From: Tupaia tana
Taxonomy: Eukaryota; Chordata; Mammalia; Scandentia; Tupaiidae
NCBI GenBank assembly: GCA_026018925.1
Contig: JAKSZU010000009.1
Coordinates: 85,944,139 to 86,008,138, forward strand
Length of the DNA stretch: 64,000 nt
Direction: 5' to 3'
Both the position numbers and the translations under genes were made by a program. Numbering within the stretch: the stretch's first letter is position 1; each line of letters starts with the position of its first letter. The notes under the pieces are model-generated. The model was not told the DNA's origin. It did not search any database and was given only the letters and a program-made list of their open reading frames with translations. This document shows positions 17,868 through 63,967 of the stretch, in pieces.

Positions 17868-18621
17868 TTATGGACCCACAAGAGCATCAGCATAATTTTC
17901 TGACTGTTGGAGAGTCTGATATTGTTGTCGGAGCATGAGTACTTGAACTGCGCTTACTCGCTCACGGACGAAAGTGACTAGGCAGTTTAAAATGCAGGGC
18001 ACGAAGGTTAAGATGAGAAGGAGTATAATTAGGGGACCGAGCAAACTAGAGACCTTTGCAAGCATCCCAGGTGTTAGGTCCTCGCCAGGGCCCTCTAGTA
18101 ACAGTTATCAGAGGGTCTGGGTGTGGCGGATTCCAAGAAATGTAGCCGGTGGACACACAGTCCCAATAGTAACAGAAGAAATGTGTGGGGCCCTCACATT
18201 TGTAAGAGTTGCTACCAGGGCAGACATAAAAGTAATGATTGTAGGTGCCTGATTTAGTGCCCGGAACGGCGCATCCATACTGCAGCCTGAAGGGATCAGG
18301 GATGGACTTAGTCCACAAGTCACCCACAAGGTCACAGAGATCAAATTCTAGGGTGTGAAACCAAGTCCCCAATGGGGCCGTGCGGGTGGTGATGTTAACA
18401 ACGTGGTTATCGCTCACACAGGAGATTACCCAAGAAAGGGACAGGGGCTTATGGGGGTTGACACTACTTATCGCAGGCACAGGCATCAGGAGGAGCAAGA
18501 CTGCCACCGTGAATGCGGAGCTTGAGTGGGTGATCCAGTTTTTCCACCTTCCAAGTGGGGTCTGGCGGAGGCACTGGTTTAGCATGGGAGGTGTGGATCC
18601 AAGAAGCGATGCCATCAACAT
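17868..18621 (-). pseudogene. env: Provirus env remnant with a large internal deletion
   Basis: The envelope glycoprotein normally comprises a surface and a transmembrane subunit. Here an open stretch at 18621-18046 covers the hydrophobic signal peptide (AVLLLLMPVPAIS) and the first part of the surface subunit (NPHKPLSLSWVI, CVSTGYISW). Immediately after it, 18065-17868 in another frame gives only the membrane anchor (GPLIILLLILTFVPCI) and cytoplasmic tail. The rest of the surface subunit, the cleavage site, fusion peptide and ectodomain of the transmembrane subunit are missing, an estimated 1 kb or more. The two parts are out of frame. The start overlaps the end of pol, as in gammaretroviruses. 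Confidence 0.9.
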
Positions 18622-21600: not shown

Positions 21601-22061
21601 GCTGTCTTGGCTCAGGCTTTAGGATATTTTTGCAGCCAAGCATGAAGGGGGCCAGTGTTACTATCTTGACTTTCAAAAAGCCGGTGTTCATCTTGTAGGT
21701 GTACAGCTAGGACTAATGTCTGCCCATCCGGAGTAACCTTTGGACCCCGTGGGGTAAAATTAATCTGTGCCCGCATTTTGGTAAGTAAGTCTCTCCCAAG
21801 GAGGGGTGCCGTTCATTCAGGAATGACCAAGAAGGAGTGGGTCACTAGGCCCCTCCTGAGGTCAACTGTTCTATTGGTGGTTCATGGATACTGCTGGTGC
21901 CCAGTTGCCCCTATGACCCAAGATTTTTTCTTGGAAAGTGGCCCCAATGGTGCCAGTAACACTGAGTGTTGGGTCCCAGTGTCGACTAAAAAATTAATTG
22001 GCTTCCCCTCCATTTTTAGAGTTACCCCAGGCTCGGGGAGGGGCTCCGAGCCCCGTCCCCC
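18464..22061 (-). pseudogene. pol: Provirus pro-pol (protease, RT, RNase H, integrase), broken
   Basis: Follows gag across an in-frame UAG. The protease active site VDTG is at about 21975-21986. RT begins near 21600 (MGLATNRPP), with [20 protein letters not shown] near 21370 and the YVDD catalytic box at 21034-21045. RNase H has TDGSS near 20125 and YTDSRYAFATAH near 19940. Integrase has D, D and E catalytic residues in VDFTE, GSDNGPTF and SGQVERMNR (19320-19040). Stops in the reading frame occur at about 21813 (protease), 21612, 21232, 21153, 20066, 19547 and 18698. Frameshifts lie near 21430 and 20510-20580. The polyprotein would copy and integrate the viral genome; this copy cannot. Confidence 0.94.
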
Positions 22062-23668
22062 CTAGTCTGAGTCCTCATGCAGGGCAAGTACTTCGACCGG
22101 AGGGGGCTGCTGCACTTTGTTTTTCTTGGCCCTTTTAGGACAGTCTTTTGCCCAATGTCCTTTTTCTTTACAATAAGCACACTGGTCTTTGTCTAGTGGG
22201 ATACGACCAGGCTTTGGTCCCTTGTTGGGGCCCCGTTCTTGTCCCCTTTCCCACACTACAGTGGCCAGGATCCAAGCTAGGTTTTTTTCTTGTCTTTTTT
22301 CCTTTTTACTCTCTCTTTCCTCCCTTTCTTTTTCCTTCCTCTTTTCTCTTTCTTCTTCTATTTCTCTTTTATAATATACTTTTACTGCTTCTTTAACTAA
22401 GTCCTGTAAAGAGAGATCCTGCAACCCATCGAGTCTCTGGAGTTTTTTCTTAATATTTAATGCTGATTGTCCAATGAAGGCCACAGCTACGGAGGCTCTC
22501 TGTCCCTCAGAAGCAGGGTCAAAAGGGGTAAACCACCTGAATGCCTCCATGAGACGCTCAAGAAACACTGATGGGGGTTCTGTAGCCCCCTGCATAACCT
22601 CTCTTACCTTAGCCAAATTAGTGGGGTGCCTGGCAGCTCCACGGAGGCCAGCCACTAGAGCCTGGCGATAGACTGTCAGTCGCTCCCTACCTTCTGCCAT
22701 ATTGTAGTCCCGGTTGGGTCGAGAGAGAGGAAAAGCAGCCTCAATAAGGTTAGGAAACTGAGTGGGACGTCCGTCAGCCCCCAGGATATTTTTTCTTGCT
22801 TCGAGTAAGACCCTCTCTCTCTTCGGTGGTGAAGAGAGTCTGCAGGAGCTGCTGGCAATCGTCCCATGTTGACTGATGAGAGAACATTAGGGACTCTACC
22901 AGGCTGGTTAGGCGCTGGGGGTCCTCGGAGAAAGGGGGGTGATTAGTTTTCCAGTTGTAAAGGTCAGAGGAAGAAAAGGGCCAATATTGGAGAGGCTGTA
23001 GGGGAGGTAGCCCCTCGTCGGTAGGCGGAGGTGGGGGCCCATAGGCCCGTAAGGGCAGTGCCACAGTGATATCGGGAGACGGGAGTGCGCGACATTGACT
23101 CCTAGTGCCCTGAGCAGGCCCTAGAAGGGCACCCTCAGAGGGGGCAGAAGGACCAAGTCTAACGTTAGGTGGCACTCCGGGGTCTCTGCGCCTTTCTTCA
23201 TCTAGCGGAAGGGACGGGGGATATGGGGGAGGGGTGTCTAGGAAAAGGAGGTCTTGGGTCTCTGGATAGATTCGCTTAGGACTTTTGATAAGGTCTGTAC
23301 CCTCTGGAGGGTTGGGGGACTGGGCCACCAGGACCTGAGGGGGGTTTGGGTGGGGCCTGGGCAACCATGGTCGAACCCACGAAGGTGGGTTTTGGATCAG
23401 ATCTTGCCAAACGATGATGTATGGTTGCTGCTCCAGATGACTTCCTGGTCCCTTCTGAAAGACAATGTCTTTGACGGAAAGGATAGCGTTAAGGTCAAAC
23501 GTGCCTTCGGGTGGCCACCCGACACCAAAGGTGGGCCGGCCACTCAGAGGCACAAAACGTCTGCCAGAGTCCCTTTTTAATTTCTACAGACAGGTCACGA
23601 CCTCTTTCCTTCACTTCAGTCCAGTGTCTGAGAGTCAAATTTAAATGAGTCACCACAGTCTGCCCCAT
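22062..23668 (-). pseudogene. gag: Provirus gag (matrix, p12-like, capsid, nucleocapsid), broken
   Basis: Starts at ATG 23666-23668 with MGQTV, the N-myristoylation signal of gammaretroviral Gag. The matrix region runs to about 23250, followed by a proline-rich section containing a PPPY-type late-domain motif (DTPPPYPPS, about 23230). Capsid starts near 23070, with the major homology region [19 protein letters not shown] near 22580. A highly charged E/K/R stretch leads to one CCHC zinc knuckle ([14 protein letters not shown], about 22180-22140). It ends at UAG 22062-22064, the expected read-through stop. Frameshifts: an apparent 4-nt GGCC duplication near 23535, and an indel near 22810. Gag would assemble the particle. 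Confidence 0.95.
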
Positions 23669-24063
23669 CGTCAACGGTTAGGTTAAGAGTATAGACAACA
23701 GAACAAGGAACAGGACAAGACAAACAGAAAGTAACTACCGATTTTTGTTTTCCACAATCTTAGGACAGATTCAGACGGGCGCAGGCCAAAATATGTACCC
23801 GATCTGCACCCTTACCGTAGGAGACGATCAGGCGTCCCTAATCCTCCTCCGCCCTTAGGGCGTCCCCCAGCGCTGCAGCCTGTGGTTCTCCAGGCACGTC
23901 TCCCAACCACAGTTCAGCTATTTTACAATAGGCCGAACGACTGTGGAACCTGAAACAGACTATTGGGTACCACACCAAAACAAACAAGAAAGTCGACAAA
24001 CAAACAGGGGTTTTTTTAGGCTTACCTCCAAGGCCAACGTTGTAGATGACAGGTAGCCACGAT
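23669..24063 (-). other. Provirus 5' leader
   Basis: Non-coding stretch between the primer-binding site and the gag ATG, where gammaretroviruses keep the splice donor and packaging signal. I did not identify those elements individually. Confidence 0.7.
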
Positions 24064-24081
24064 ATCCCAGATGAGCCCCCA
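24064..24081 (-). other. tRNA-Pro-type primer-binding site
   Basis: Reads TGGGGGCTCATCTGGGAT on the minus strand, three bases after the 5' LTR. It fits the proline tRNA site used by many gammaretroviruses with two changes (G to A and C to T). Confidence 0.85.
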
Positions 24082-24084
24082 AAA

Positions 24085-24536
24085 TGTAAGGGCGCCAGCC
24101 GCCTGGCTAGGCGCGCTTTCTGTCCAGAGGATACGCGACCCCCAATCAACCACAAGAGTCGGTTCTTGATGCAAAATGCAAGAGGTTTTATTTTTCCAGC
24201 CGGCTGGGGTCCAAGCAAACACCTGACGCAGCAGGCCTGAGCGAGGACCCAGTTTTTAGGGTTATAGGTCTTTTTATAAGCAGGAGAAGGTATGCGGAAG
24301 ATTAACAGGTAGTTCATTTCTAGGGGGAAGAGTGGCAGTCTTGTGACACATGTGCATGGGTTGTCTTTCTAGTTCCTTGTCCACATTCCATTTGCTCCAT
24401 TCCTGGAGGTTTGCATAATTAAGTCTGTTGGGGCAGTTTGTCACAAGGGCAGTTTATCACAAGGGCGTCCAGCAAAAGCAAAGGTTAAATTTTATCTCTA
24501 CAGAGCAGAAAGGCATAATTTAAATTTATTCTTACA
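24085..24536 (-). repeat. Provirus 5' LTR
   Basis: Contains the promoter and enhancer for the provirus. 452 bp, about 12 differences from the 3' LTR by eye. The target duplication TAAC follows at 24537-24540. Confidence 0.95.
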
Positions 24537-44177: not shown

Positions 44178-44936
44178 ATTTTTGAGCATTTAGTATGAGT
44201 TCATGTCTTAGCAGTTGAAAATAATGCTGCAATAAACATATAACAGATGTGCCGGTGTCTCTCTAACTAAGTGTATTTTTATCCTTTGGGTAAGTACCCA
44301 GAAGTGATAGTACTGGGTCATATGGCAATTCTATTTCTTGGTTTTTAAGGAAACTCCAGATACTTTCCGTGCCTGCAGCAGGCGAAAGCCTCTCCTACAA
44401 GCCTCTGGCCAGCAAGAGATACTGAGGGAGGGTCACCTCTGACCCCCACCCCACTTCCAGAGCCCCAGGCTCCAGACTCTACCTTCTAGGTAAGTAGGTA
44501 GGATATCCCTGCCCCGGCTTTTTCCTTGAAACCCCTCCATTCTCTTGTTAATACCTAGTTCTTCTTCTCCCTCCAAATTTTCAGTGCATGTCAGAAGGCG
44601 AAAGGATCTCCTAAAAGACTCTGGCCAGCAAGGGATACTGAGGGAGGGTCACCTCTGACCCCCACCCGACTCCCAGACCCCCAGGCCCCAGACTCCACCT
44701 TTTAGGTAGGTAGCTAGGATCTCCCTGCAGCAGCTTTTTTCTTGAACCCCTCTATTCTCTTTTTAATACCTAGCTCTACTTCTCCCTCCAGAATGTTCCA
44801 GCCTGCCAGCAGGTGAAAGGCTCTCCTACAAGCCTCTAGCCAGCAAGGGATACTGAGGGAGGGTCAGCTCTGACCCCACCCCACTTCCAGACCCCCAGGT
44901 TCCAGACTGCACCTTCTAGGTAAGTAGCTAGGATCT

Positions 44937-47900
44937 CCCTGCCCTGGCTTTTCCTTCAACTCCCTCCATTCTCTTGTTAATACCTAGTTCTTCTTCTCCC
45001 TCCAGAATTTCAGTGTCGGTCAGCAGGGGAAAGGATATCCTACAAGACTCTGGCCAGCAAGGGAGACTGAGGGAGGGTCAACTCTGACCCCCACTCCACT
45101 TTCAGACCCCCAGGCCCCAGACTCCACCTTTTAGGTAGGTAGCTAAGATTCCCCTGCCATGGCTTTTTTCTTGAACCACCTCCATTCTCTTGTTAATACC
45201 TAGCTCTGCTACTCCCTCCAGACCTTCCCTGCCTGTCAGCAGGCGAAAGGCTCTCCTACAAGCCTCTGGCCAGCAAGGGATACTGAGGGAGGGTCACATC
45301 TGACCCCCACCCCACTTCCAGATCCCCAGGCCCCAGACACCACCTTCTAGGTAGGTAGCTAGGATCTCTCTGCGGCGGCTTATTTCTTGAACACCCTCCA
45401 TTCTCAGGTTAATACCTGGCTCTGCTTTTCTCTCCAGAATTTCCTAGCCCAGCAGCAGGCAAAAGGCTCTCCTACAAGCCTCTGGCCAACAAGGGATACT
45501 GAGGGAGATTCACCTCTGACCCCCACCCCACTTCCAGACCCCCAGGCCCCAGACTCCACCTTCTAGGTAGGTAGCTAGGATCTCCCTGTGGTGGCTTTTT
45601 TCTTGAACCCACTCCATTCTCTTGTTAATACCTGGCTCTGCCTCTCCCTACAGAATTTGGTGCCTGTCAGCAGGCGAAAGGCTCTCCTACAACACTCTGG
45701 CCAGCAAGGGATACTGAGGGAGGGTCTCTTCTTACCCTCACCCCACTTCCAGACCCCCAGGCCCGAGACTCCACCTTCTAGGTAGGTAGCTAGGATCTCC
45801 CTATGGTTACTTTTTTCTTGAACCACCTCCATTCTCTTGTTAATACCTAGATCTGCTTCTCCATCCAGAATTTCAGTGCCTGTCAGCAGGCAAAAGACTC
45901 TCCTAAAAGCCTAGGGCCAGCAAGGGATACTGAGGGAGGGTCACTTCTGACCCCCACCCCACTTCGAGACCCCTGACCCCAGACTCCACCTTCTATGTAG
46001 GTAGCTAGGATCTCCCTGCAGAGGCATTTTCTTGAACCCCCTCCATTCTCTTCTTAATACCTACCTCTGCTTCTCCCTCCAGATTTTTCTTGCCTGCCAG
46101 CAGGCGAATGGCTCTGCTACAACCCTCTGGCCAGCAAGGGATACTGAGGGAGGGTCACCTCTGACCCCCACCCCACTTACTGACGCCCACGCCCCAGACT
46201 CCAACCTTCTAGGTAGGTAGCTAGGATCTCCCTGCCCTGGCTTTTTACTTGAACCTCCTCCATTCTCTTGTTAATACCTTGGTCTGCTTCTCCCTCCAGA
46301 CTTTCCTTGCCTGCCAGGAGGTGAAAGGCTCTCCTACAAGCCTCTGGCAAGCAAGGGATACTGAGGAAGGGACACCTGTGACCCCCACCCCACTTCCAGA
46401 CCCCCAGGCCCCACACTCCACCTTCTAGACTATCCGTGCCTGCCAGCAGGCTAAAGGCTCTCCTACAATCCTCTGGCCAGCAAGAGATACTGAGGGAGGG
46501 TCACCTCTGACCGACACCCCACTTCCAGACCCTGAGGCCCCAGACTCCACCTTCTAGGTAGGTAGCTAGGATCTCCCTGCGGTGGCTTTTTTCTTGAACC
46601 CCTCATTTCTCTTGTTAATACCTAGCTCTGCTTCTCCCTCCAGACATTCCCTGCCGGCCAGCAGGCAGAAGGATCTCCTAAAAGCCTCTGGCCAGCAAGG
46701 AAACTGAGGGAGGGTCACCTCTCACCCCCACCCCACTTCCTGATGCCCAAGCCCCAGACTCCACCTTCTAGGTAGGTAGCTAGGATCTCCCTGCCCTGGC
46801 TTTTTACTTGAACCTCCTCCATTCTCTTGCTAATACCTAGCTCTGCTTATCCCTACAGATTTTGGTGCCTGTCAGCAGGCGAAAGGCTCTCCTACAACAC
46901 TCTGGACAGCAAGGGATACTGAGGGAGGGTCTCTTCTTACCCCCACCCCACTTCCAAACCCCCAGGCCCGAGAATCCACCTTCTAGGTAGGTAGCTAGGA
47001 TCTCCCTATGGTTACTTTTTTCTTGAACCACCTCCATTCTCTTGTTAATACCTAGCTCTGCTTTTCCATCCAGAATTTCAGTGCCTGTCAGCAGGCAAAA
47101 GACTCTCCTACAAGCCTCTGGCCAGCAAGGGATACTGAAGGAGGGTCACCCCTGACCCCCACCCCACTTTGAGACCCCTGGCCCGAGACTCCACCTTCTA
47201 TGTAGGTAGATAGGATCTCACTGCAGAGGCTTTTTTCTTGAACCCCCTCCATTCTCTTCTTAATACCTAGCTCTGCTTCTCCCTCCAGATTTTCCGTGCC
47301 TGCCAGCAGGCGAAAGGCTCTCCTACAAGCCTCTCGCCAGCAAGGAAACAGAGGGAGGGTCACCTCTGACCCCCACCCCACTTCCTGACGCCCAGGCCCC
47401 AGACTCAACCTTCTAGGATGGTAGCTAGGATCTCCCTGCCCTGGCTTTTTACTTGAACCTCCTCCATTCTCTTGTTAATACCTAGCTCTGCTTCTCCCTC
47501 CGGACGTTCCTTGTCTGCCAGGAGGTGAAAGGCACTCCTACAAGCCTCTGGCAAGCAAGGGATACTGAGGGAGGTTCACCTCTGACCCCCACCCCACTTC
47601 CAGACCCCCAGGCACCAGACTTCACCTTCTAGGTAGGTAGCTAGGATCTCCCAGCATTGGCTTTTCCTTGAACCCCCTCCATTCTCTTGTTCATACCTAG
47701 CTCTGATTCTCTCTCCAGACTTTTGGTGCCTGTCAGCAGGCAAAAGGCTCTACTACAAGACTCTGGCCAGCAAGGGATACTAAGGGAGGGTCACCTCTTA
47801 CCCCCACCCCACGTCCAGACCCCCAGGCCCAGACTCCACCTTCTACGTAGGTAGCTAGCATCTCCCTGGGGCAGCTTTTTTCTTGAACCCGTTCCATTCT

Positions 47901-50900
47901 CTTGTTAATACCTAGCTCTGCTTCCCCCTCCAGATTTTTGGTGCCTGTCAGCAGGCAAAAGGCTCTCCTAAAAGCCTCTGGCCAACAAGGGATACTGCGG
48001 GAGGGTCACCTCTGACCCCCACCCCACTTCCACACCCCCAGGCCCCAGACTCCACCTTCTAGGTAGGGAGCTAAGATCTCCCTGCTGAGGCTTTTTTCTT
48101 GAACCCCCTCCATTCTCTTCTTAATACTTAGTTCTGCTTCTCCCTCCAGATTTTCCGTGCCTGCCAGAAGGCGAAAGGCTCTCCTCAAAGCCTCTGGCCA
48201 GCAAGGGACACTGAGGGAGGGTCACCTCTGACCCCCACCCCACTTCCTGACGCCCAGGCCCCAGACTCCACCTTCTAGTTTGGTAGCTAGGATCTCCCTG
48301 CCCTGGCTTTTTACTTGAACCTCTTCCATTCTCTTGTTAATACCTAGCTCTGCTTCTCCCTCCGGACTTTCCTTGCCTGCCAGGAGGTGAAAGGCTCTCC
48401 TACAAGACTCTGGCAAGCAATGGAGACTGAGGGAGGGTCATCTCTGACACCCACCCCGCTTCCAGCCTCCCAGGACCCACACTCCACCTTCTAGACTTTC
48501 CGTGCCTGCCAGCAGGCGAAAGGTTCTCCTTCAAGCCACTGGGCAGCAAGGGATACTGATGGAGGGTCACCTCTGACCCACACCCCACTTCTAGACCCCG
48601 AGGCCCCAGACTCCACCTTCTAGGTAGGTAGCTAGGATCTCCCTGCGGAGGCTTTTTTCTTGAACACCCTCCTTTCTCTTGTTATTTCCTAGCTCTGCTT
48701 CTCCCTCCAGACTTTCCCTGCCTGCCAGCAGGCTGAAGGCTCACCTACAAGCCTCTGGCCAGCGAGGGATATTGAGGGAGTTTCACCTCTGACCCCCACC
48801 CCACTTGCAGACCCCCAGGCACCAGACTCCACCTTCTAGGTAGGTATCTAGGAACTCGCAGCAGTGGCTTTTTCTTGAACCCCCTCCATTCTCTGGTTAA
48901 TACCTAGCTCTGCTTTTCTCTCCAGACTTTCCTAGCCTAGCAGCAGGCAAAAGGCTCTCCTACAAGCCTCTGGCCAACAAGGGATATGGAGGGAGGGTCA
49001 CCTCTGACCCCCACCCCACTTTCAGACACCCAGGCCCCAGACTCCACCTTCTAGACTTTCCATGCCTGCCAGCAGGCGAAAGACTCTCCTACAAGCCTCT
49101 GGTCAGCAAAGGATACTGAGGGAGGGTAACCTCTGACCCACACCAGACTTCCAGACCCCGAGGCCCCAGTCGCCACCTTCTAGGTAGGGAGTTAGGATCT
49201 CCCTGCCCTGGCTTTTTCCTTCAACTCCCTCCATTCTCCTGTTAATACCTAGTTCTTCTTCTCCCTCCAGAATTTCAGTGCCTGTCAGCAGGCAAAAGGC
49301 TCTCCTACAAGACTCTGGCCAGCAAGGGAGACTGAGGGAGGGTCACCTCTGACCCCCACTCCACTTCCAGACCCCCACGCCCCAGACTCCACCTTTTAGG
49401 TAGGTAGCTAAGATCCCCCTGCCATGGCTTTTTTCTTGAACCACCTCCATTCTCTTGTTAATACCTAGCTGTGCTACTCGCTCCAGAATTTCCCTGCCTG
49501 CCAGCAGGCGAAAGGCTCTCCTACAAGCCTCTAGCCAGCAAGGGATACTGAGGGAGGATCACCTCTGACCCCCATCTCACTTCCAGATCCCCAGGCCCCA
49601 GACACCACCTTCTAGGTAAGTAGCTAGGATCTCTCTGCGGCGGCTTATTTCTTGAACCCCCTCCATTCTCAGGTTAATACCTGGCTCTGCTTTTCTCTCC
49701 AGAATTTCCTAGCCCGGCAGCAGGCAAAAGGCTCTCCTACAAGCCTCTGGCCAACAAGGGATACTGAGGGAGATTCACCTCTGACCCCCCACCCCACTTC
49801 CAGACCCCCAGGCCCCAGACTCCACCTTCTAGGTAGGTAGCTAGGATCTCCCTGTGGTGGCTTTTTTTTTGAACCCACTCCATTCTCTTGTTAATACCTG
49901 GCTCTGCCTCTCCCTACAGACTTTTGGTGCCTGTCAGCAGGCGAAAGGCTCTCCTACAACACTCTGGCCAGCAAGGGATACTGAGGGAGGGTCTCTTCTT
50001 ACCCTCACCCCACTTCCAGACCCCCAGGCCCCAGACTCCACCTTCTAGGTAGGTAGCTAGGATCTCCCTATGATTACTTTTTTCTTGAACCACCTCCATT
50101 CTGTTGTTAATACCTAGCTCTGCTTCTCCATCCAGACTTTCAGTGCCTGTCAGCAGGCAAAAGACTCTCCTAAAAGCCTCGGGCCAGCAAGGGATGCTGA
50201 GGGAGTGTCACCTCTGACCCCCACCCCACTTCGAGACCCCTGACCCCAGACTCCACCTTCTATGTAGGTAGTTAGGATCTCCCTGCAGAGGCTTGTTTCT
50301 TGAACCCCCTCCATTCTCTTCTTAATACCTGGCTCTGCTTCTCCCTCCAGATTGTCCGTGCCTGCCAGCAGGCAAAAGGCTCTCCTACAAGCCTCTGGCC
50401 AGCAAGGGATACTGAGGGAGTATCACCTCTGACCCCCACCCCACTTCCTGACACCCACGTCCCAGACTCCACCTTCTAGGTAGGTAGCTAGGATCTCCCT
50501 GCCCTGGCTTTTTACTTGAACCTCCTCCATTCTCTTGTTAATACCTAGGTCTGCTTCTCGCTCCAGACTTTCCTTGCCTGCCAGGAGGTGAAAGGCTCTC
50601 CTGCAAGCCTCTGGCAAGCAAGGGATACTGAGGAAGGGACACCTCTGACCCCCAGCCAACTTCCAGACCCCCAGGCCCCACACTCCACCTTCTAGACTAT
50701 CCATGCCTGCCAGCATGCTAAAGGCTCTCCTACAAGCCTCTGGCCAGCAAGGGATACTGAGGGAGGGTCACCTCTGATCGACACCCCACTTCCTGTTGCC
50801 CACGCTCCAGACTCCACCTTCTAGGTAGGTAGCTAGGATCTCACTGCGGTGGCTTTTTTCTTGAACCCCTCATTTCTCTTGTTATTACCTAGCTCTGCTT

Positions 50901-53900
50901 CTCCTTCCAGACTTTCCCTGCCGGCCAGCAGGCGGAAGGATGTCCTACAAGCCTCTGGCCAGGAAGGAAACTTAGGGAGGGTCACCTCTCACCCCCACCC
51001 CACTTCCAGATCCCCAGGCCCAGACACCACTTTCTAGGTAGGTAGCTAGGATCTCCCTGCGGCGGCTTATTTCTTGAACCCCCTCCATTCTCGGGTTAAT
51101 ACCTAACTCTGCTTTTCTCTCCAGAATTTCCTAGTCCGGCAGCAGGCAAAAGGCTCTCCTACAAGCCTCTGGCCAGCAAGGGATACTGAGGGAGATTCAC
51201 CTCTGACCCCCACCCCACTTCCAGACCACCAGGCCCCAGACTCCAACTTCTAGGTAGGTAGCTAGGATCTCCCTGTGGTGGCTTTTTTCTTGAACCCCCT
51301 CCATTCTCTTGTTAATACCTAGCTCTGCCTCTCCCTACAGACTTTTGGTGCCTGTCAGCAGGCGAAAGTCTCTCCTACAAGACTCTGACCAGCAAGGGAT
51401 ACTGAGAGAGGGTCTCTTCTTACCCCCACCACACTTCCAGACCCCCAGGCCCTAGAATCCACCTTCTAGGTAGGTAGCTAGGATCTCCCTATGGTTACTT
51501 TTTTCTTGAACCACCTCCATTCTCTTGTTAATACCTAGCTCTCCTTCTCCATCCAGACTTTCAGTGACTGACAGCAGGCAAAAGACTCTCCTAAAAGCCT
51601 CGGGCCAGCAAGGGATACTGAGGGAGGGTCACCTCTGACCCCCACCCCACTTCAAGACCCCTGACCCCAGACTCCACCTTCTATGTAGGTAGCTAGGATC
51701 TCCCTGCAGAGGCTTGCTTTTTGAACCCCCTCCATTCTCTTCTTAATACCTAGCTCTGCTTCTCCCTCCAGACTTTCAGTGCCTGTCAGCAGGCTAAAGG
51801 CTCTCCTACAAGACTCCAGCCTGCAAGGGAGACTGAGGGAGGATCACCTCTGATCCCCACTCCACTTCGAGACTCCAGGCCCCAGACTCCACCATCTAGG
51901 TAGGTAGCTAGGATCTCCCTATGGTTGCTTTTTACTTGAACCACCTCCATTCTCTTCTTAATACCTAGCTCTGCTTCTCCCTCCAGACTTTCAGTGCATG
52001 TCAGCAGGCAAAAGACTCTCCTACAAGCCTCTGGCCAGCAAGGGATACTGAGGGAGGGTCCCCTCTGACGCCCTCCCCACTTCGAGACCCCTCGATCCAG
52101 ACACCACCTTCTATGTAGGTAGCTAGGATCTCCCTGCAGAGGCTTTTTTCTTGAACCCCCTCCATTCTCTTCTTAATACCTAGCTCTGCTTCTCCCTCCA
52201 GATTTTCCGTGCCTGCCAGCAGGCGAAAGGCTCTCCTACAAGCCTCTGGCCAGCAAGTAAACTGAGGGAGTGTCACCTCTGACCCCCACCCCACTTCCTG
52301 ATGCCCTGGCCCCAGACTCTACCTTCTAGGATGGTAGCTAGGATCTCCCTGCCCTGGCTTTTTACTTGAACCTCTTCCATTCTCTTGTTAATACCTAGCT
52401 CTGCTTCTCCCTCCGGACTTTCCTTGCCTGCCAGGAGGTGAAAGGCTCTCCTACAAGCCTCTGGCAAGCAAGGGAGACTGAGGGAGGGTCACCTCTGACC
52501 CCCACCCCGCTTCCAGCCTCCCAGGCCCCACACTCCACCTTCTAGACTTTCTGTGCCTGCCAGCAGGCGAAAGGTTCTCCTTCAAGCCACTGGCCAGCAA
52601 GGGATACTGATGGAGGGTCACCTCTGACCCACACCCCACTTCCAGACCCCGAGGCCCCAGATTCCACCTTCTAGGTATGTAGCTAGGATCTCCCTGCGGT
52701 GGCTTTTTTCTTAAACCCCCTCCTTTCTCGTGTTAATTCCTAGCTCTGCTTCTCCCTCCAGACTTTCCCTGCCTGCCAGCAGGCTGAAGGCTCACCTACA
52801 AGCCTCTGGCCAGCGAGGGATATTGAGGGAGTTTCACCTCTGACCCCCACCCCACTTCCAGACCCCCAGGCACCAGACTCCACCTTCTAGGTAGGTAGCT
52901 AGGAACTCCCAGCACTGGCTTTTTCTTGAACCCCCTCCATTCTCTGGTTAATACCTAGATCTGCTTTTCTGTCTAGACTTTCCTAGCCTAGCAGCAGGCA
53001 AAAGGCTCTACTACAAGCCTCTGGCCAACAAGGGATACTGAGGGAGGGTCACCTCTGACCCCCACCCCACATTCAGACACCCAGGCCCCAGACTCCACCT
53101 TCTAGACTTTCCATGCCTGCCAGCAGGTGAAAGGCTCTCCTACAAGCCTCTGGTCAGCAAGGGATACTGAGGGTGGGTAACCTCTGACCCACACCCCACT
53201 TCCAGATCCCGAGGCCCCAGTCTCCACCTTCTAGGTAGGTAGTTAGGATCTCCCTGCCCTGGCTTTTTCCTTCAACTCCATTCTCTTGTTAATACCTAGT
53301 TCTTCTCCCTCCAGAATTTCAGTGCCTGTCAGCAGGCAAAAGGCTCTCCTACAAGACTCTGGCCAGCAAGGGAGACTGAGGGAGGGTCACCTCTGACCCC
53401 CACTCCACTTCCAGACCCCCTGGCCCCAGACTCCACCTTTTAGGTAGGTAGCTAGGATCCCCCTGCCATGGCTTTTTTCTTGAAGCACCTCCATTCTCTT
53501 GTTAATACCTAGCTGTGCTACTCGCTCCAGAATTTCCCTGCCTGCCAGCAGGCGAAAGGCTCTCCTACAAGCCTCTAGCCAGCAAGGGATACTGAGGGAG
53601 GATCACCTCTGACCCCCATGCCACTTACAGATCCCCAGGCCCCAGACACCACCTTCTATGTAGGTAGCTTGGATCTCCTTGCGGCGGCTTATTTCTTGAA
53701 CCCCCTCCATTCTCGGGTTAATACCTAGCTCTGCTTTTCTCTCCAGAATTTCCCAGCCCGGCAGCAGGCAAAAGGCTCTCCTACAAGCCTCTGGCCAACA
53801 AGGGATACTGAGGGAGATTCACCTCTGACCCCCACCCCACTTCCAGACACCCAGGCCCCAGAATCCACCTTCTAGGTAGGTAGCTAGGATCTCCCTGTGG

Positions 53901-54800
53901 TGGCTTTTTTCTTGAACCCCCTCCATTCTCTTGTTAATACCTACCTCTGCCTCTCCCTACAGACTTTTGGTGCCTTTCAGCAGGCGAAAGGCTCTCCTAC
54001 AAGACTCTGGCCAGCAAGGGATACTGAGGGAGGGTCTCTTCTTACCCCCACCTCACTTCCAAACCCCCAAGCCCTAGAATCCACCTTCTAGGTAGGTAGC
54101 TAGGATCTCCCTATGGTTACTTTTTTCTTGAACCACCTCCATTCTGTTGTTAATACCTAGCTCTGCTTCTCCATCCAGACTTTCAGTGCCTGTCAGCAGG
54201 CAAAAGACTCTCCTAAAAGCCTCGGGCCAGCAAGGGATACTGCCGGAGGGTCACCTCTGACCCCCACCCCACTTCGAGACCCCTGGCCCCAGACTCCACC
54301 TTCTATGTAGGTAGCTAGGATCTCCCTGCAGAGGCTTGTTTCTTGAACTCCCTCCATTCTCTTCTTAATATCTAGCTCTGCTTCTCCCTCCAGATTGTCT
54401 GTGCCTGCCAGCAGGCGAAACGCTCTCCTACAAACCTCTGGCCAGAAAGGGATACTGAGGGAATGTCCCCTCTTACCCCCACCCCACTTCCTGACGCCCA
54501 TGCCCCAGACTCTACCTTCTAGGTAGGTAGCTAGGATCTACCTGCCCTGGCTTTTTACTTGAACCTCCTCCATTCTCTTGTTAATACCTAGCTCTGCTTC
54601 TCGCTCCAGACTTTCCTTGCCTGCCAGGAGGTGAAAGGCTCTCCTACAAGCCTCTGGCAAGCAAGGGATACTGAGGAAGTGTCACTTCTGACCCCCACCC
54701 CACTTCCAGACCCCCAGGCCCCATACTCCACCTTCTAGACTTTCCGTGCCTGCCAGCAGGTGAAAGGCTCTCCTACAAGCCTCTGGCCAGCAAGGGATAC
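44937..54800 (+). repeat. Higher-order repeat within the monomer array
   Basis: Groups of about 20 units recur. The variant CTTTTTCCTTCAACTCC is found near 44948, 49210 and 53260. The variant GAGGGTCTCTTCTTACC is near 45720, 49987 and 54030 (also 46930 and 51410). The variant GGTTCTCCTTCAAGCCACTG is near 48530 and 52573. Spacing is about 4.26 kb for the first pair and about 4.05 kb for the next, and the third block fades after about 54.8 kb. Confidence 0.8.
46429..46558 (+). repeat. Short (intron-less type) monomer, example
   Basis: TTCTAG joins directly to ACTATCC at 46428/46429, without the 87-bp segment. The same kind of junction occurs at 48494, 49054, 50695, 52545, 53105, 54738, 55083, 56079 and 56637. 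Confidence 0.9.
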
Positions 54801-57630
54801 TGAGGGAGGGTCACCTCTGACCCCCACCCCACTTCCAGACCCCCAGGCCCCAGACTCCACCTTCTAGGTAGGTAGCTAGGATCTCCCTGCAGTGTCTTTT
54901 TTCTTGAACCCCCTCCATTCTCTTGTTAATATCTAGCTCTGATTCTCCCTCCAGACTTTTGGTGCCTGTCAGCAGGCAAAAGGCTCTACTACAAGCCTCT
55001 GGCCAGCAAGGGATACTGAGGGAGGGTCACCTATGACCCCCACCCTACTTCCAGACCCCCAGGCCTAAGACTCCACTTTCTAGACTTTCCGTGCCTGCCA
55101 GCAGACGCAAGGATCTCCTACAACCCTCTGGCTAGAAAGGGATACTGAGGGAGGGTCACCTCTGACCCCCACCCCACATCCAGATCACCAGGCCCCCGAC
55201 ACCACCTTCTAGGTAGGTAGCTAGGATCTCCCTGCGGCTTGTGTTTTCTTGAACCCCCCCCCCCCATTCTCTGGTTAATACATAGCTATGCTTTTCTCTC
55301 CAGACTTTCCTAGCCTAGCAGCAGGCGAAAGGCTCTGCTCCAAGCCTCTGGCCAACAAGGGATACTGAGGGAGGGTCACCTCTCACCCCCACCCCACTTT
55401 CAGACACCCCGGCCCCAGACTCCACCTCCAAGTTAGGTAGCTAAGATCTCCCTGTGGAGGCTTTTTGTTGAACCCCCTCCATTCTGTGGTTAATACCTCG
55501 CTCTGCTTCTCCCTCCACAATTTCCCTGCCTGCCAGCAGGCAAAAGGCTCTCCTACCAGCCTCTGGCCAGCAAGGGATACTGTGGGCTGGTCACCTCTGA
55601 CCCCCACCCAACTTAGAGACCCCCAGGCAACAGACTCCACCCTCTAGGTAGGTATCTAGGATCTCCCTGTGGCGGATTTTTTCTTGTACCTCCTTCATTC
55701 ACTTGTTAATACATAGCTCTGCTTCTCCCTCCAGACTTTCCCTGCCTGCCAGCAGGCTTAAGGCTCTCCTACAAGCCTCTGGCCAGCAAGGGATACTGAG
55801 GGAGGGTCACCTCTGACCCCCAACCCACTTCCAGACCCACAGGCCCCAGACTCCACCTTCTAGGTAGGTAGCTAGGATCTCACTGTGGAGGCTTTTTTCT
55901 TGAACCGCCTCCATTCTCTAGTTAATACCTACCTCTGTTTCTCCCTCCAGATTTTCCAAGCCTACCAGCAGGTGAAAGGCTCACCTACAAGCCTCTGGCC
56001 AGCAAAAGATACTGTGGGAGCATTACCTCCGACCCCCACCCCATTTCCAGACCCCCAGGCCCCATAATCCATCTTCTAGACTTTCTGTGCCTGCCAGGAG
56101 TCGAAAGGCTCTTCTACTAGCCTCTGGCCAGCAAAGGATGGTGAGGGAGGGTCACTTCTGACCCACACCCCACTTCCAGACGCCCAGGCCCCAGACTTCC
56201 CCTTCTAGGTTGGTAGCTAGGATCTCCCTGCAGTGGCTTTTTTCTTGAACCCCCTCCATTCTCTTGTTAATACCTAGCTCTGCTTCTCCCTCCTGATTTC
56301 CCAGCCTGCCAGCAGGCAAAAGGCTCTCCTACAAGACTCTGGCCAGCAAGGGATACTGAGGGACGGTCACTGCTGACCCACACCCACTTCCAGACCTCCA
56401 GGTCCCAGACTCCACCTTCAAGGTAGCTAGCTACGACTCCCTGTGTCAACTTTTTTCTTGAATCCCCTCCATTCTCTTGTTAATACCCAGCTCTGCTTCT
56501 CCCTCTAGATTTTCTGTGCCTGCCAGAAGGAAAAAGGCTCTCCTACAAGCCTCTGGCCAGCAAGGGATACTGCGGGATGGTCACCTCTGACCCTCACCCG
56601 ACTTCCAGACCCCCAGGCCCCATAATCCATCTTCTAGACTTTCTGTGCCTGCCAGCAGGTGAAAGGCTCTCCTAGAAGCCTCTGGCCAGCAAGGGATACT
56701 GAGGGAGGGTCACCTCTGACCCCCAACCCACTTCCAGACGCCCAGGCCCCAGACTTCCCCTTCTAGGTAGGTAGCTAGGATCTCCCTGCAGTGACTTTTT
56801 TCTTGAACCCCCTCCATTCTCTTGTTAATACCTAGCTCTGGTTCTCCCTCCAGACTTTCCCAGCATGCCAGCAGGCGAAAGGCTCTCCTACTAGCCTCTG
56901 GCCAGCAAGGGATACTGAGGGAGGGTCACCTCTGACCCCCAACCCACTTCCAGACCCCCAGCCCCCAGACTCCACCTTCTAGGTAGGTTGCTAGGATCTC
57001 CCTGCGGCAGCTTTTATCTTGAACCCCCTCCATTCCCTTGTTATTACCTAGCTCTGCTTCTCCCTCCAGATTTTCTGAGCCTGCCAGCAGGCAAAAGGCA
57101 CTCCTACAAGCCTCTGTCCAGCAAGGGATAATGAGGGAGTTTCACCTCTGACCCCCACCCCAATTCCAGACCCTCAGGCCCCAGACTCCATCTTCTAGGT
57201 ATGTAGCTAGTATCTCCCTGCAGTGGCTTTTTTCTTGAACCTCCTCCATTCTCTTGTTAATACCTAGCTCTGCTTCTCCCTCCAGATTTTCCATGCCTGC
57301 CAGCAGGCTTAAGGCTCTCCTACAAGCCTCTGGCCAGCAGGGGATACTGACGGAGGGTCACCTCTGACCCCCACCCCACTTCCAGACCCTCAGGCCCCAG
57401 ACTCCACCTTCTAAGTAGGTAGCTAGGATCTCCCTTCAGCGGATTTTTTCTTGAACCTTCTCCATTCTCTTGTTAATACCTAGCTCTGCTTCTCCCTCCA
57501 GACTTTGCTTGCCTGCCAGCAGGCTTAAGGCTCTCCTGCAAGCCTCTGGCCAGCAAAGGATACTCAAGGAGTGTCACCTCTTACCCCCACCCCAATTCCA
57601 GACCCCCAGGCCCCAGACTCCACCTTCTAG

Positions 57631-57717
57631 GTAGGTAGCTAGGATCTCCCTGTGGCGACTTTTTTCTTGAACCCCCTCCATTCTCTTGTTAATACCTAGC
57701 TCTGCTTCTCCCTCCAG
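57631..57717 (+). other. 87-bp intron-like segment of a long monomer, example
   Basis: One well-preserved instance. It begins GTAGGTAGCT right after TTCTAG (donor TAG/GTAGGT), carries TTGTTAATACC about 25-30 bases before the end (TTAAT fits the yUnAy branch-site pattern), then CTCTGCTTCTCCCTCCAG (pyrimidine tract plus CAG acceptor). Equivalent segments are in about 58 units. Splicing itself is not shown by the sequence. Confidence 0.6.
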
Positions 57718-57786
57718 ATTTTCCCTGCCTGCCAGCAGGCTTAAGGCTCTCCTACAAGCCTCTGGCCAGCAAGGGATACTGAGGGA

Positions 57787-57802
57787 GGGTCACCTCTGAC
57801 CC
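57787..57802 (+). promoter_or_regulatory. GGGTCA-CCTC-TGACCC palindrome, example
   Basis: Perfect 6-bp inverted arms around 4 bases, followed by a CCCCACCCCAC run in most units. It resembles two nuclear-receptor half-sites (AGGTCA type) facing each other with spacing 4, next to a CACCC box of the SP/KLF kind. Present in the large majority of units, and kept in L1-B. Binding is not shown. Confidence 0.5.
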
Positions 57803-58197
57803 CCAACCCACTTCCAGACCCCCAGGCCCCAGACTTCACCTTCTAGGTAGGTAGCTAGGATTTCCCTGCGGCTGCTTCTTTCTTGAACCCCCTCCATTTG
57901 CTTGTTATTACGTAGCTCTGCTTCTCCCTCCAGATTTTCTGAGCCTGTCAGTGGGCAAATGGCACTCCTACAAGCCTGTGGCCAGCAAGGGATACTGAGG
58001 GAGTTTCACCTCTGACCCCCACCCCAATTCCAGACCCCCAGGCCCCAGACTCCACCTTCTAGGTAGGTAGCTAGTATCTCCCTGCAGCGGCTTTTTTCTT
58101 GAACCTCCTCCATTCTCTTGTTAATACCTAGGTCTGCTTCTCTCTCCAGACTTTCTGTGCCTGCCAGTAGGCGAAAGGCTCTCCTCCAAGCCTCTGG

Positions 58198-58574
58198 CAA
58201 AATCGTGTGCTGCGCATTAGTGCGGCGGGCAACTTTTTCTTTATTTTTCTCTGTTGTCTTTTTTTTTCGTTGAATATTGTCCTCTCCTCCTCATTTTTTA
58301 CCCTGCCAGACAGACTGGACAGGTCTAGAATCATATATCTGAAATTTTCTAGTAAGGTAAGTGTCTCTGTGATCCTCCCTTGTACTGATCCCCCTGTGAA
58401 AAAGGAGATACTGCTTTTTAGACACTTCTGTAGAGTTCCCCTCCTGAGAGCACATTGGTAAAAACAACAGAAGAGAGACTTCAGCAAACATCTATTCCCA
58501 TCAAAAAGGAGACCCTTACTTCTAGTGGGAGAAACATTCTCCCAAGAGGTCTTTAAAAGGGAATTAATCTTCCA
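58198..58574 (+). promoter_or_regulatory. L1-C unique 5'UTR
   Basis: Follows the truncated last monomer. Positions 58233-58574 match L1-B 36689-36353. Positions 58198-58232 (CGTGTGCTGCGCATTAGTGC and neighbours) are CpG-rich and have no counterpart in L1-B. It probably forms the downstream part of the L1 promoter and the leader for ORF1. Confidence 0.75.
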
Positions 58575-58622
58575 ATGTCTATAAGTTGAAAAAGAGCCTC
58601 AGGTCTGAATAAACAAGGAAAT

Positions 58623-59574: not shown

Positions 59575-62500
59575 ATGGCTAACTTAAATGTCGGTACAGA
59601 TCCTGTAACATCGATAATAACATTGAATGTTAATGGTTTAAATTCTCCAATCAAGAGACACAGACTTGCTGAATGGATTAAAAAAACCCAGAAACTCTCT
59701 ATCTGTTGCCTACAAGAAACCCACCTCATGGAGAAAGACATACATAGACTGAAAGTGAAGGGTTGGAAAAAGGTTTTCCATGAAATTGGGAACCAGAAAG
59801 AGTTGGAGTTGCGATACTAATTTCTGACAAAATAGGCTTTAAAACAAAAAGTGTTTGAAGAGACAAAGAAGGGCACTATATCATAGTAAAAGGCTCTATA
59901 GATCGAGAAAACATAATGCTTATTAATATCTATGCTCCTAACACAGGAGCACCCAAATATGTGAAGGAAAGACTGTTAGATCTGAAAGGGGAGATAGACT
60001 GCAACACACTAATTGTTGGAGATTTCAACACCGCATTATCCCCTCTGGACAGATCATCTAGTCAAAAAATAGGTAAAGAGATCAAGGATCTAAATGATAC
60101 TATAAATCAATTGGACTTAACAGACATCTATAGAACTTTCCACCCAAAAACCACAAGATATAGTTTTTTCTCACCCCGACATGGAACTTTCTCGAAGATT
60201 GACCACATCATAGGACACAAAGCAAGCCTCTGCAGATTCAGAGGCATAGAAACTATTTCCAGCATCTTCTCTGACCATGATGGAATTAAACTTGAGTTTA
60301 ATTTCAAGAGAAATCCTCAAAAATACCTAAAAACATGGAAACTAAATAACCTACTCCTGAATGACTCCACTATTACCGAAGAAATAAAGACTGAAATCAA
60401 AATATTCATGGAAGTCAATGACAATGAAGACAGGAGTTTCCATAATCTTTGGGACACTGCCAAAGCAGTCATAAGAGGGAAGTTCATAGCAATTAGTGCA
60501 CATAAGAGGAAGACAGAGAGAAGGCTAATGGATCACCTAACATCAAGCCTCAGAGAATTGGAAAAGCAACAGAAAAAAATCCAAAAAATTCCAGGAGAAA
60601 GGAAATAATAAAAATCCGAGCAGAAATAAATGAAATAGAAAATAAACGTACTATACAGAAAGTAAGTGAAAGCAAAAGCTGGTTCTTTGAAAGGATAAAC
60701 AAAATTGATACCCCACTAGCGAGACTTATTAAGAAGAAGAGAGAAAGGAACCAGGTGAATCAAATCTGCAATGAGGCTGGTAACATAACAACAGACATAG
60801 CAGAAATTCAAAACATCATTAGAGGATACTTTGAACATCTATACGCTAAGAAACAAGATAATCTGGATGAGATGGACAAATTCCTGGACAAATATAGTCT
60901 ACCAAGAATGAGCCAGGAAGAAATAGAAAGTCTGAATAGGCCCAGAACAAGCCAGGAGATTGAATCAGTAATAAATAACCTCCCAACAAAGAAAAGCCCT
61001 GGCTCCGATGGATTCACCTCTGAATTCTACAAAACTTTCAAAGAAGAGTTAACTCCCATTCTGCTCAAATTATTTCTAAAGATCCAAAAGGGTGAATCTC
61101 TCCCTAATTCATTCTATGAAGCCTCTGTCACCCTCATCCTCAAAACAGATAAGGACAGGACAAGGAAGGAAAACTATAGACCAATATCTCTGATGAACAT
61201 AGACTCAAAGATTCTCAACAAGATACTAGCAAATCGTATTCAACAACTTATAAAGAAGATCATACACCATGATCAGGTAAGCTTTATTCCAGGAATGCAA
61301 GGTTGGTTCAACATATGCAAAACCATAAATGTAATACACCATATTAATAGGAAGAAAGACAAAAACCATATGGTCATATCGATTGATGCAGAAAAAGCAT
61401 TTGATAAGATACAACATCCCTTCATGATCAAGACTCTTAGCAAAATCGTCATAGAAGGGCCATTTCTCAATACAGTAAAAGCCATCTATGAAAAACCCAT
61501 AGCGAAAATCATCCTGAATGGAGAAAAGCTGAAAGCTTTCCCGCTAAACACAGGAACAAGACAAGGATGCCCACTTTCTCCTCTCCTTTTCAATATAGTA
61601 CTGTAAGTCCTCGCCAATGCAATCAGTAAAGAGGAAAAAATAAAGGGCATTCGAATAGGAAAAGAAGAGGTGAAACTTTCTATTTGCAGATGACATGATT
61701 GTATACAAAGAAGACCCAATGGTCTCCATGGAAAAATTACTGGAAGTAATACATGAATTCAGTAAAGTTGCAGGATATAAAACCAATATACAGAAATCGA
61801 TAGCATTTCTATATACGAATAACAGGCAGACTGAGATAGAACCAAAAAAAGTTATTCCGTTTACCATAGCCACTAAAAGTATTTAGGAATATTTAGGAAT
61901 AAATCTAACAAAAGAAATTAAAGACCTCCACAAGGAAAACTATGAGAAGCTAAAAAAAGAAATTGAAAATGACACAAAAAAATGGAAGGACATCCCATGT
62001 TCATGGATTGGAAGAGTTAATATAATCAAAATGGCAATTCTACCCAAATTAATCTACCTACTTAATGCAATGCCAAAGTACCAGACACATTCTTCACAGA
62101 TCTAGAAAAGACAATCTTAAAATTTGTCTGGAATCATAAAAGACCCCGTATTGCCAAAGCAATTCTACACAAGAAGAGTGGAGTGGGCGGCATCTCAATC
62201 CCCAATCCAAAAATATATTACAAAGCTGTGGTAATAAAGACAGCATGGTATTGGCACAGAAACAGACATGTGGACAAATGGAACAGAATAGAGTCCCAAG
62301 AAATAAGTGCCCAAACATACAGTCAACTGATCTTTGACAAGGGGTACCAGTCAATCCAGTGAGAAAATGAAACCCTCTTCAGCAAGTGGTGCTGGAAAAA
62401 TTGGACTTCCACTTGCAGAAAGATGAATCTGAACCCCTACCTCTCTCCTTTGACAAAAATCAAATCAAGGTGGATCAAGGATCTAAATCTAAGACCTCGA

Positions 62501-63430
62501 ACTATAAAGCTGCTCCTGGAGAATACTGGGGAAACTCTGGGAGACATTGGTGTAGGGAAAGACTTCCTAAAGAAGACCCTCAAAGCAGAGTCCATTGTCC
62601 CCAAAATAGACAAGTGGGATTACATCAGACTAAGAAGTTTCTGCATGGCCAAAGACACAGTAGTTAGTGTGAATCGACAGCCCTCAGAATGGGAAAATAT
62701 TTTTGTAAATTTTGCATCAGATAAGGGACTGATAACCAGAATACACAAGGAACTAAAAAAGGTGTTTGGAAAAAAGATGGTCAACCCTATTAAAAGATGG
62801 GAGAAGGAGATGAAGAAAACACTCTCTAAAGATGACATATGAATGGCCAAAAGGCATATGAAAAAATGTTCAACCTCCCTCATTGTAAGGGAAATGCAGA
62901 TAAAAAAAACAATGAGGTACCACCTAACCCAAGTCAGAATGTCTAATATTAAAAAAACAAAAAATGATAAGTGTTGTCGGGGGTGTGGTGAAAGGGGAAC
63001 TCTTTTACACTGCTGGTGGGAATGTAGATTGGTCCAAACACTGTGGAGAATAATTTGGAGATTCCTCAAAAATCTACAGATTGATCTGCCATATGATCCA
63101 GGGATCCCACTCCTCGGTATCTACCCAAAGGACAGAAGAATTCTTCATTGGAAAAGTGCTTGCACATCAATGTTTACTGCGGCACTATTCACAATTGCTA
63201 AGTCATGGAACAAACCCAAATGCCCCCGTATGGAGGAATGGATTGAAAAACTGTGGCACATATACTCTATGGAATACTACTCAGCCATAAAAACCAACAG
63301 AGCCCCGGCTTTTGACAGAAAGTGGAAGAATATGGAAGATGTACTGCTGAGTGAGGCAAGCCAGGCTATGAAAGAGAGACATTGTATTTCCCTACTTAAC
63401 ATATACCGTTTGTCTGCATTCTATGTCTGA
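59575..63430 (+). pseudogene. L1-C ORF2 remnant (endonuclease / reverse transcriptase)
   Basis: Starts MANLNVGTDP. The endonuclease has TLNVNGLNSP and CCLQETHL (59610-59730), NIYAPN (about 59925), VGDFN and SDHDGI (to about 60290). RT includes [15 protein letters not shown] (about 60995), [16 protein letters not shown] (about 61378), [12 protein letters not shown] (about 61560) and the FADD catalytic box (61682-61693). The Cys-rich C-terminus [18 protein letters not shown] is at about 62975-63030, and the stop at 63428-63430. Breaks: frameshifts near 59805, 60600, 61660 and 62085, and stops near 59853, 61604 and 62362. ORF2p performs target-primed reverse transcription. Only about seven breaks make this the youngest-looking L1 body here. 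Confidence 0.93.
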
Positions 63431-63707
63431 AACTGATTGACTAACAGTTGAACAAACACAAGAGATGGGTGTGAATGTCAGATGAGGTGTACGTGGAGGA
63501 GTGGGGCCTAACGAAAGACATTTGGAGAAAGGATACAGAGGTAGAGCATTGACAGGATGGGGCGGTGTGGTGTTACTGTTGAAGATATTTTGATCAACGG
63601 GTCTGGGGAGAAATGTTCACATATCGAAATGGTCTCATTGTAAGCCAAACAATATGATTGAAAGTATATACAAAAATAATAATAATAATAAATAATGTGA
63701 AAAAAAA
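63431..63707 (+). other. L1-C 3'UTR and internal A-rich tail
   Basis: Matches 7567-7860 of L1-A. Ends with an (AAT)n stretch at 63674-63692 and an A run near 63698-63706, the normal L1 3' end. Confidence 0.85.
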
Positions 63708-63957
63708 TTAGCTAAATTCTTCTCACGTAGAAGGAACGATCGAGAATAGCAAGAAAGTGTTTCCACCAAACAATGTTAATTTAAGTTTTCTGCTTTTAGA
63801 TGTTCACTTAAAATATCCATTTTCTACCATATTCTTGAGTTTTCATTTCTCGCCACAGTATCACTATCTTAACCCAGGGTAACTGAGGGTGTTGATGTTT
63901 ATTTACAGTGGAAAACTCTATGGCCCAATATAATTCTAATAAGATGTTAAAAAAAAA
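63708..63957 (+). other. 3'-transduced flank of L1-C
   Basis: About 240 bp of sequence not found in the other L1 copies, lying between the L1 tail and the terminal A run at 63949-63957, with the target duplication only after it. AATATA at 63927-63932, a weak variant poly(A) signal, is about 17 bases before the A run. The source locus is unknown. Confidence 0.75.
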
Positions 63958-63967
63958 GGAAACTCCA

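Follow-up and report, generated by a model that had tools for sequence, protein, structure and literature searches.

The LINE-1 (L1) retrotransposons of rodents carry tandem monomers with promoter activity at their 5′ ends, normally a handful in each copy. Here we describe an L1 of Tupaia tana that is preceded by 68 full monomers and a partial 69th. It lies in a stretch of 64,000 nucleotides (assembly GCA_026018925.1, contig JAKSZU010000009.1, positions 85,944,139 to 86,008,138, forward strand), hereafter called the window. The array, the L1 and its tail form one insertion of 19.6 kb between exact 12-bp duplications. Most of the monomers contain a part with intron-like ends, and the same monomer forms satellite DNA elsewhere in the genome.

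In mouse L1Md (A, Gf, Tf), tandem units of about 200 bp, variable in number and with extreme cases, stand before a non-monomeric tether and open reading frame 1 (ORF1). The longest mouse array holds 50 type A monomers (chr3:6296898-6308206 in mm10) and 99% have 10 or fewer (PMC6454616), while seven loci with more than 10 intact monomers were counted in a set of 5,765 (PMC9022269). In the window L1, too, a tether precedes ORF1 and is itself preceded by adjoining tandem units of about 200 bp, the layout by which a monomer-type promoter is recognized in mouse. This likeness is one of layout, the sequences of the mouse A, F, Gf and Tf monomers not having been compared. The window L1 differs in its 68 units (with probably more in a second L1), in the intron-like block of most units, and in the satellite made from the unit. 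Outside rodents, tandem repeats are known in the 5′ untranslated regions (5′UTRs) of horse-lineage L1s, two to three for one type (PMC5872511).

Two other systems are relevant. Human L1 RNA spliced within the 5′UTR can retrotranspose, giving spliced integrated retrotransposed elements (SpIREs; PMC5860796). In SpIREs one large part of a unique 5′UTR is lost and promoter activity drops, whereas the window L1 has a small intron-like block repeated in its monomers, and loss of this block leaves a shorter monomer. Satellites derived from L1 include the cetacean common satellite (from the 3′ end/3′UTR) and Phodopus PROsat (from ORF2). In contrast to these, the satellite considered here appears to come from a 5′ promoter monomer, and no L1 satellite derived from a 5′UTR is named in the available portion of PMC9659126. 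A literature search by title and abstract, with subscription papers largely beyond its reach, found no satellite of L1 promoter monomers and no case of spliced monomers. What appears to be new is a monomer whose intron-like part is lost entirely or not at all, together with a dated insertion and a connection to a large satellite.

Structure of the insertion

A scan of the window with a 34-base core (up to 9 mismatches) gave 68 matches at 44411-57984, all in a single orientation. Most spacings between them (57 of 67) are 209-220 bp, and the other ten are 129 bp. Two further matches to this core, at 36787 and 36915 on the minus strand, are the only others in the window; both lie in an older copy, L1-B, which by alignment has two full monomers and a third, partial one. 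The array begins at the first base after the left copy of the 12-mer AAGGAAACTCCA, which occurs exactly twice in the 64 kb with no third copy (Table 1), and at its other end runs into the L1 5′UTR and ORF1. When the flanks were joined and aligned to four L1 sequences, the alignments extended 4-8 bases beyond the junction and none went farther; there the right flank becomes other sequence. By eye, this flank departs from the old L1 within a few bases and picks it up again 181 bp on, behind a similar CTCCATATTG motif, which would fit a small, older insertion at that point. An array arising by chance or from a simple repeat is ruled out by the core scan and by the ordered runs of similar units described below, as compared with shuffles.

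A preliminary description of this DNA had already reported about 68 head-to-tail units in one orientation, ending at the L1 5′UTR and ORF1, with the whole inside one 12-bp target duplication. All of this holds, and an L1 with a giant array of promoter monomers is supported as a sequence structure. The limits given then for the array (44361-58197) were nearly right and are now 44359-58199, and the roughly two diverged units reported in L1-B are joined by a partial third. The intron-like part, the transduction and the higher-order duplications were missing from that description, and the end of the L1 homology is corrected below.

The ORF1 product matches Transposase_22 (E 7.2e-28) and Tnp_22_dsRBD (E 8.2e-16), and Exo_endo_phos and RVT_1 domains are found in two pieces of the broken ORF2. 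Together with the target-site duplication and the poly(A) end, these endonuclease, reverse transcriptase and ORF1 domains identify the element as a LINE-1. Homology to other L1 copies stops near 63677-63707. For the 241 bp that follow, a single further match was found in the 2.95-Gb genome, at C242:94820381-94820629, with 5 differences over 241 aligned bases (2.1%; 95% interval 0.7-4.8%), and the likeness stops at the start of the second poly(A). This match adjoins an olfactory-receptor gene (Pfam 7tm_4, E 1.5e-49). Neither the window L1 body nor the monomer has a match in the 3.2 kb around it (1.5 kb upstream). Because the other match found for the transduction is a site without an L1, a source L1 that is absent from the assembly probably once stood at C242 and gave rise to the window copy. 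Since the array sits between the duplication and the L1, the simplest reading is that it was carried in with the L1, the two apparently having moved together as one retrotransposed unit. A pick-up of the array from DNA beside the source is not favored, the stretch read at C242 (1.5 kb upstream) having no monomer match.

History of the array

The 68 units differ from their own consensus by 7.9%, and the mean divergence of unit pairs is 13.9%. There are 13 ordered runs of at least three similar units, and 23 of the 68 units lie outside every run. The longest run comprises 13 units, against a maximum of 4 in 300 shuffles of unit order. The offsets of these block duplications range from 6 to 41 units, with two main ones of 20 and 21: units 19-31 and 39-51 differ at 111 of 2,537 positions (4.4%), and units 4-11 and 25-32 at 76 of 1,636 (4.6%). 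In a tree of eight L1 copies and L1-B, the terminal branch of the window L1 is 1.75% for ORF2 and the 3′UTR, an upper bound; in a tree of 12 5′UTRs including L1-B it is 3.4%. If the array changes at the pace of the 5′UTR, the pair divergence gained after insertion would be about 6.7-8% at most. At 7.6% divergence the units fall into 29, 36 or 38 lineages by single, average and complete linkage, respectively.

An intron-like part of the monomer

The 216-bp unit consists of a 129-bp block and an 87-bp GT-AG stretch, which in the consensus starts GTAGGTAG and ends CTTCTCCCTCCAG. Spacings of 100-260 bp were counted in 18 arrays; at least 15 outside that range, from missed units or inserts, were seen in the eight arrays re-checked. 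The arrays were those of the window, nine others linked to an L1 (X106, X110, C375, X116, C419, C342s, C309, X117 and C50), the L1-joined C597, the satellite contigs C1, C4, C10 and C500, C442 and C1086, and 600 bases of a second C375 array. The difference in spacing is all-or-none: 179 of the 434 spacings are 129±5 bp and 251 are at least 80 bp above 129 (at least 209 bp), with three at +61 to +79, one more than 5 bp below, and none at +6 to +60. CTAGA is present in 168 of the 179 short units, and the ten short units of the window all have TTCTAGACT at the junction. Across subtypes the block keeps a length close to 129 bp. The long part measures 85-88 bp in most of the window type, 88-100 bp in C1086, 91-94 bp in C309, C342s, C50 and C500, and mostly 112-124 bp in C1, C10 and C4; C4 also carries short joints with 1-3 extra bases.

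Splice sites were scored with simple, generic matrices and compared with the GT and AG sites found in the initial 44 kb of the window. On this scale the consensus donor lies at the 98.9th percentile and the acceptor at the 99.2nd; among 57 long window units, the donor scores at least 6 in 42 and the acceptor at least 8 in 43. The part that short units lack thus ends on splice-like donor and acceptor sites, as expected of a SpIRE-like loss. The 38-base junction predicted for splicing from a monomer donor to a 5′UTR acceptor (up to 3 mismatches) has one match in 2.95 Gb, at C531:182070835-182070872 with 2 mismatches, and its reversed control has none genome-wide.

Some other properties of the unit may be mentioned. 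Its least conserved 24-base stretch is more variable than expected (p = 0.03). Pyrimidine-to-pyrimidine changes are slightly enriched near the acceptor (38:33 versus 168:260 in the block, p = 0.027), a single test that was not used as evidence. The palindrome GGGTCACCTCTGACCC, which we take to resemble a receptor site, has 22 exact occurrences in the window array and 60 when up to 2 mismatches are allowed.

The monomer elsewhere in the genome

A 53-base core of the monomer (up to 3 mismatches) has 94,449 matches genome-wide. With up to 2 mismatches allowed in each case, there are 50,513 intron-less junctions (28 bases) and 68,742 intron-bearing ones (29 bases). L1 heads of the young family, found with a 40-base piece of the 5′UTR (up to 3 mismatches), number 824, with older heads such as that of L1-B uncounted. 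Monomer heads of the window type number 934 and those of one satellite type 62,590, and there are 36 joints of the window type to a 5′UTR. Listings of individual match positions are incomplete, one lacking its query's own locus and another the window.

Twenty small contigs were sampled at their starts. Four of them (C1, C4, C10 and C500) are covered by the unit over at least about 90%. Among the remaining 16, ten have a 312-317-bp satellite (C2, C3, C5, C250, C350, C400, C600, C800, C1000 and C1100), two a 214-bp satellite (C150 and C700), two start with the L1 body of the window family (C50 and C900), and two have none of these. The 214-bp unit resembles the monomer only weakly, over 37 bases (E 0.003). 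The window L1 body has no match in the parts read of C1 and C4 (10 kb each), C10 and C500 (5 kb each) and C442 (20 kb), although an L1 may follow beyond them. In these parts the monomer therefore forms long head-to-tail arrays without an L1 body, as a satellite does. The stretches in C1, C4 and C10 differ from their own consensus by 0.7-1.4%, possibly through recent homogenization.

Long arrays are also joined to other L1s. C50 carries an L1 preceded by 31 units, many of them nearly identical. At C375:8234406-8258875, close matches of the window type extend over 24 kb, a 600-base sample inside this stretch is array, and the low end enters an L1 5′UTR and ORF1 in the same orientation. This L1 seems to carry an even longer array than the window does, judging from samples and not from a full reading. 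Scattered matches of the window type are spread over 104 kb at C442:2918031-3022200. Among the 37 other monomer places listed, 12 lie on C1197, the contig of the window, and one (G000:C397:26959252-26961311) is a regular array of the window monomer with a period of about 348 bp. Among the monomer-type L1s, the window locus stands at the extreme without being unique.

The genome-wide search for the monomer, suggested in the preliminary description, shows both L1-linked arrays and arrays free of L1 body in the parts read. The idea put forward there of a satellite being born was an understatement in view of the core matches and the four sampled contigs. Monomers found mainly away from L1 ORF1 had been named as evidence against the reading of the locus. 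If L1 heads are taken to be the 824 young ones, with older heads left uncounted, they are indeed so distributed genome-wide (94,449 core matches); the reading of the locus itself stands, the array being joined directly to the L1.

Discussion

We consider it fairly probable that ordinary target-primed reverse transcription (TPRT) produced a single insertion of about 19.6 kb, bringing in a long array carried in RNA, and that a mini-intron was spliced out to give the 129-bp units. The source L1 formerly at C242:94.82 Mb would have been transcribed from inside its own monomer array, and transcription would have passed its poly(A) signal into 241 bp of flank. A long RNA with probably 20-38 already diverged monomers, or more, would then have served as the template for the copy at the present site, and the array may have been enlarged around or after insertion by unequal exchange spanning 20-21 units. 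In each monomer a GT-AG mini-intron, of about 87 bp in the window and of greater length in other subtypes, would follow the 129-bp block, and the 129-bp units would be copies whose intron was spliced in L1 RNA before reverse transcription. For the 129/216-bp difference splicing is the favored reading, short of a demonstration. Outside L1, both forms of the unit would have become satellite. An array that was long and already diverse on arrival is favored because unit divergence (13.9%) exceeds that of the transduction (2.1%), and some later growth is possible because the two main block duplications date close to the insertion. The preliminary description had offered expansion after insertion and copying of a long L1 RNA as alternatives; the latter is favored for much of the array, and the former may account for the 20- and 21-unit blocks.

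A normal L1 with a handful of monomers could instead have inserted, the array growing later by unequal exchange while mutating fast locally. Such growth accords with the ordered block duplications; were the array to evolve at roughly double the rate of the body, the divergence of the two largest would fit an age close to that of the insertion. It also accords with the size of the other monomer places listed, among which matching monomers span 0.3-1.1 kb at 36 of 37 and at least 2 kb at the other (C397), not each of them checked for an L1. Several further results weigh against an array that was long on arrival. At 10.6% divergence the units form 6, 21 or 28 lineages (single, average and complete linkage). 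The two main block duplications do not differ significantly in divergence from the transduction (Fisher p = 0.09 for each), and a dating of the blocks as clearly older than the insertion is rejected. The 5′UTR is about twice as diverged as ORF2, and divergence may therefore overstate the age of the array. The transition/transversion ratio of the window array is 0.70 against 1.3-1.9 in the fuller ORF2 comparisons, an odd pattern that weakens any dating from the array. Low ratios are found more widely, at 0.3-1.4 in nine other arrays and 0.5-1.6 in 5′UTR pairs, against 1.1-3.5 in ORF2 pairs. Growth after insertion would nevertheless need about 7 times the rate of the transduced DNA to reach the observed pair divergence (about 3 times at the upper interval limit), compared with about twice in the adjoining 5′UTR, and we regard it as improbable. 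Tandem arrays are difficult to assemble, but an artefact is very hard to credit here: the window contains no N, the duplicated blocks are more than 4% different, the array is bounded by the target duplication and a usual L1 junction, and samples show a second long L1-linked array.

The two unit lengths could also have arisen without splicing: the 87-bp part, which has AG at both ends, would have been deleted (or inserted) once in the distant past, and inheritance together with unequal exchange would have carried that change through the arrays. The 2-bp AG overlap at the ends of the long part allows for such an origin of the intron-less units, and a number of findings count against splicing. 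Both GT and AG ends are present in only 163 of 209 long parts (cut automatically, length classes printed), 43 of 53 for those in the window, counts lowered by small shifts near the ends. The most conserved 24-mer of the unit lies at the donor, yet neither it nor any other 24-base stretch exceeds shuffles (p = 0.25), and the splice sites are not clearly more conserved than the remainder. Spliced copies from the near-consensus 5′UTR donor (58357) have no genome match in a test with an exact 19-base anchor followed by non-G and then non-T, which would miss any copy whose anchor has changed or whose first bases are different. Both junctions of the older L1-B are of the short form, so that the change may have gone in either direction. 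Short units of C50 and C500 are about equally near to short units elsewhere and to long units of their own array. A single deletion, in turn, must explain why several length classes of the long form converge on an identical short form, why both ends fall on splice sites near the 99th percentile, and why the predicted chimeric junction has a match in the genome. In the window, C442, C597 and C1, moreover, the nearest long unit of the same array is closer than any short unit from the five other arrays examined. A single deletion is thus unlikely, if far from negligible. A satellite that came first and was later taken over by L1 as a promoter would agree with the excess of units over young L1 heads, and replacement of L1 5′UTRs is known (PMC5872511). 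The small divergence of C1, C4 and C10 from their consensus speaks against it, though recent homogenization could explain this, as do the diverged monomers already present in L1-B and the intron/no-intron difference shared by the satellite, which makes sense in transcribed DNA alone. We think this order of events rather improbable as well.

Features of the window

Coordinates are collected in Table 1. Elsewhere in the window, long frames on the minus strand at 18046-24368 read by eye in the open reading frame list like gag, pol and env of a gammaretrovirus-like provirus. A frame at 5542-6015 on the plus strand, within the span of L1-A, reads like prohibitin and is probably a processed pseudogene.

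Table 1. Parts of the monomer-bearing L1 insertion, in window positions
Feature	Position	Strand	Basis or remark
Left 12-bp target-site duplication AAGGAAACTCCA	44347-44358	.	exact match; within old antisense L1
68 full monomers, head to tail	44359-58147	+	core matches and spacings
69th, partial monomer, 52 bp, joined to L1 5′UTR	58148-58199	+	acceptor-like site just upstream, first base after = 58150
Units 4-11, duplicated as units 25-32 (49269-50907)	45004-46640	+	4.6% different
Units 19-31, duplicated as units 39-51 (52199-54736)	48148-50693	+	4.4% different
Intron-less junction, example, unit 10 to 11, CTTCTAG/ACT	46422-46432	+	reads TTCTAGACT
Other nine intron-less junctions, starts of units 21, 24, 32, 41, 44, 52, 54, 59, 62	48493, 49053, 50694, 52544, 53104, 54737, 55082, 56078, 56636	+	read TTCTAGACT
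L1 5′UTR without monomers (tether)	58200-58622	+	acceptor-like site (first base after = 58310); donor AAG/GTAAGT (GT 58357-58358)
L1 ORF1, open, 279 aa	58623-59462	+	Transposase_22 and Tnp_22_dsRBD
L1 ORF2 region, broken into several frames	59575-63430	+	endonuclease and reverse transcriptase domains in two pieces
L1 3′UTR and first A-rich stretch	63431-63707	+	alignment to other L1 copies
3′ transduction, 241 bp	63708-63948	+	sole other match found in genome at C242:94820381-94820629
Second poly(A) stretch	63949-63955	+	shared transduced part ends at its start
Right 12-bp target-site duplication	63956-63967	.	exact match

Implications

The locus brings together three topics that are usually kept apart, namely L1 promoters, L1 RNA splicing and the birth of satellite DNA. 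The transduction and the exact target duplication provide a clock beside the array, by which RNA copying and in-place growth of giant arrays can be tested at one locus. As a tentative wider scheme, which we put forward as possible rather than probable, the monomer would be a repeated mini-exon with its mini-intron. Splicing followed by retrotransposition would continually make short monomers, long arrays would survive as RNA, and arrays outgrowing their L1s would seed a satellite of tens of thousands of units; the splicing of transposon RNA would then have shaped a satellite. If the intron reading is true, germ-line RNA would join 129-bp blocks at CTAG/A.

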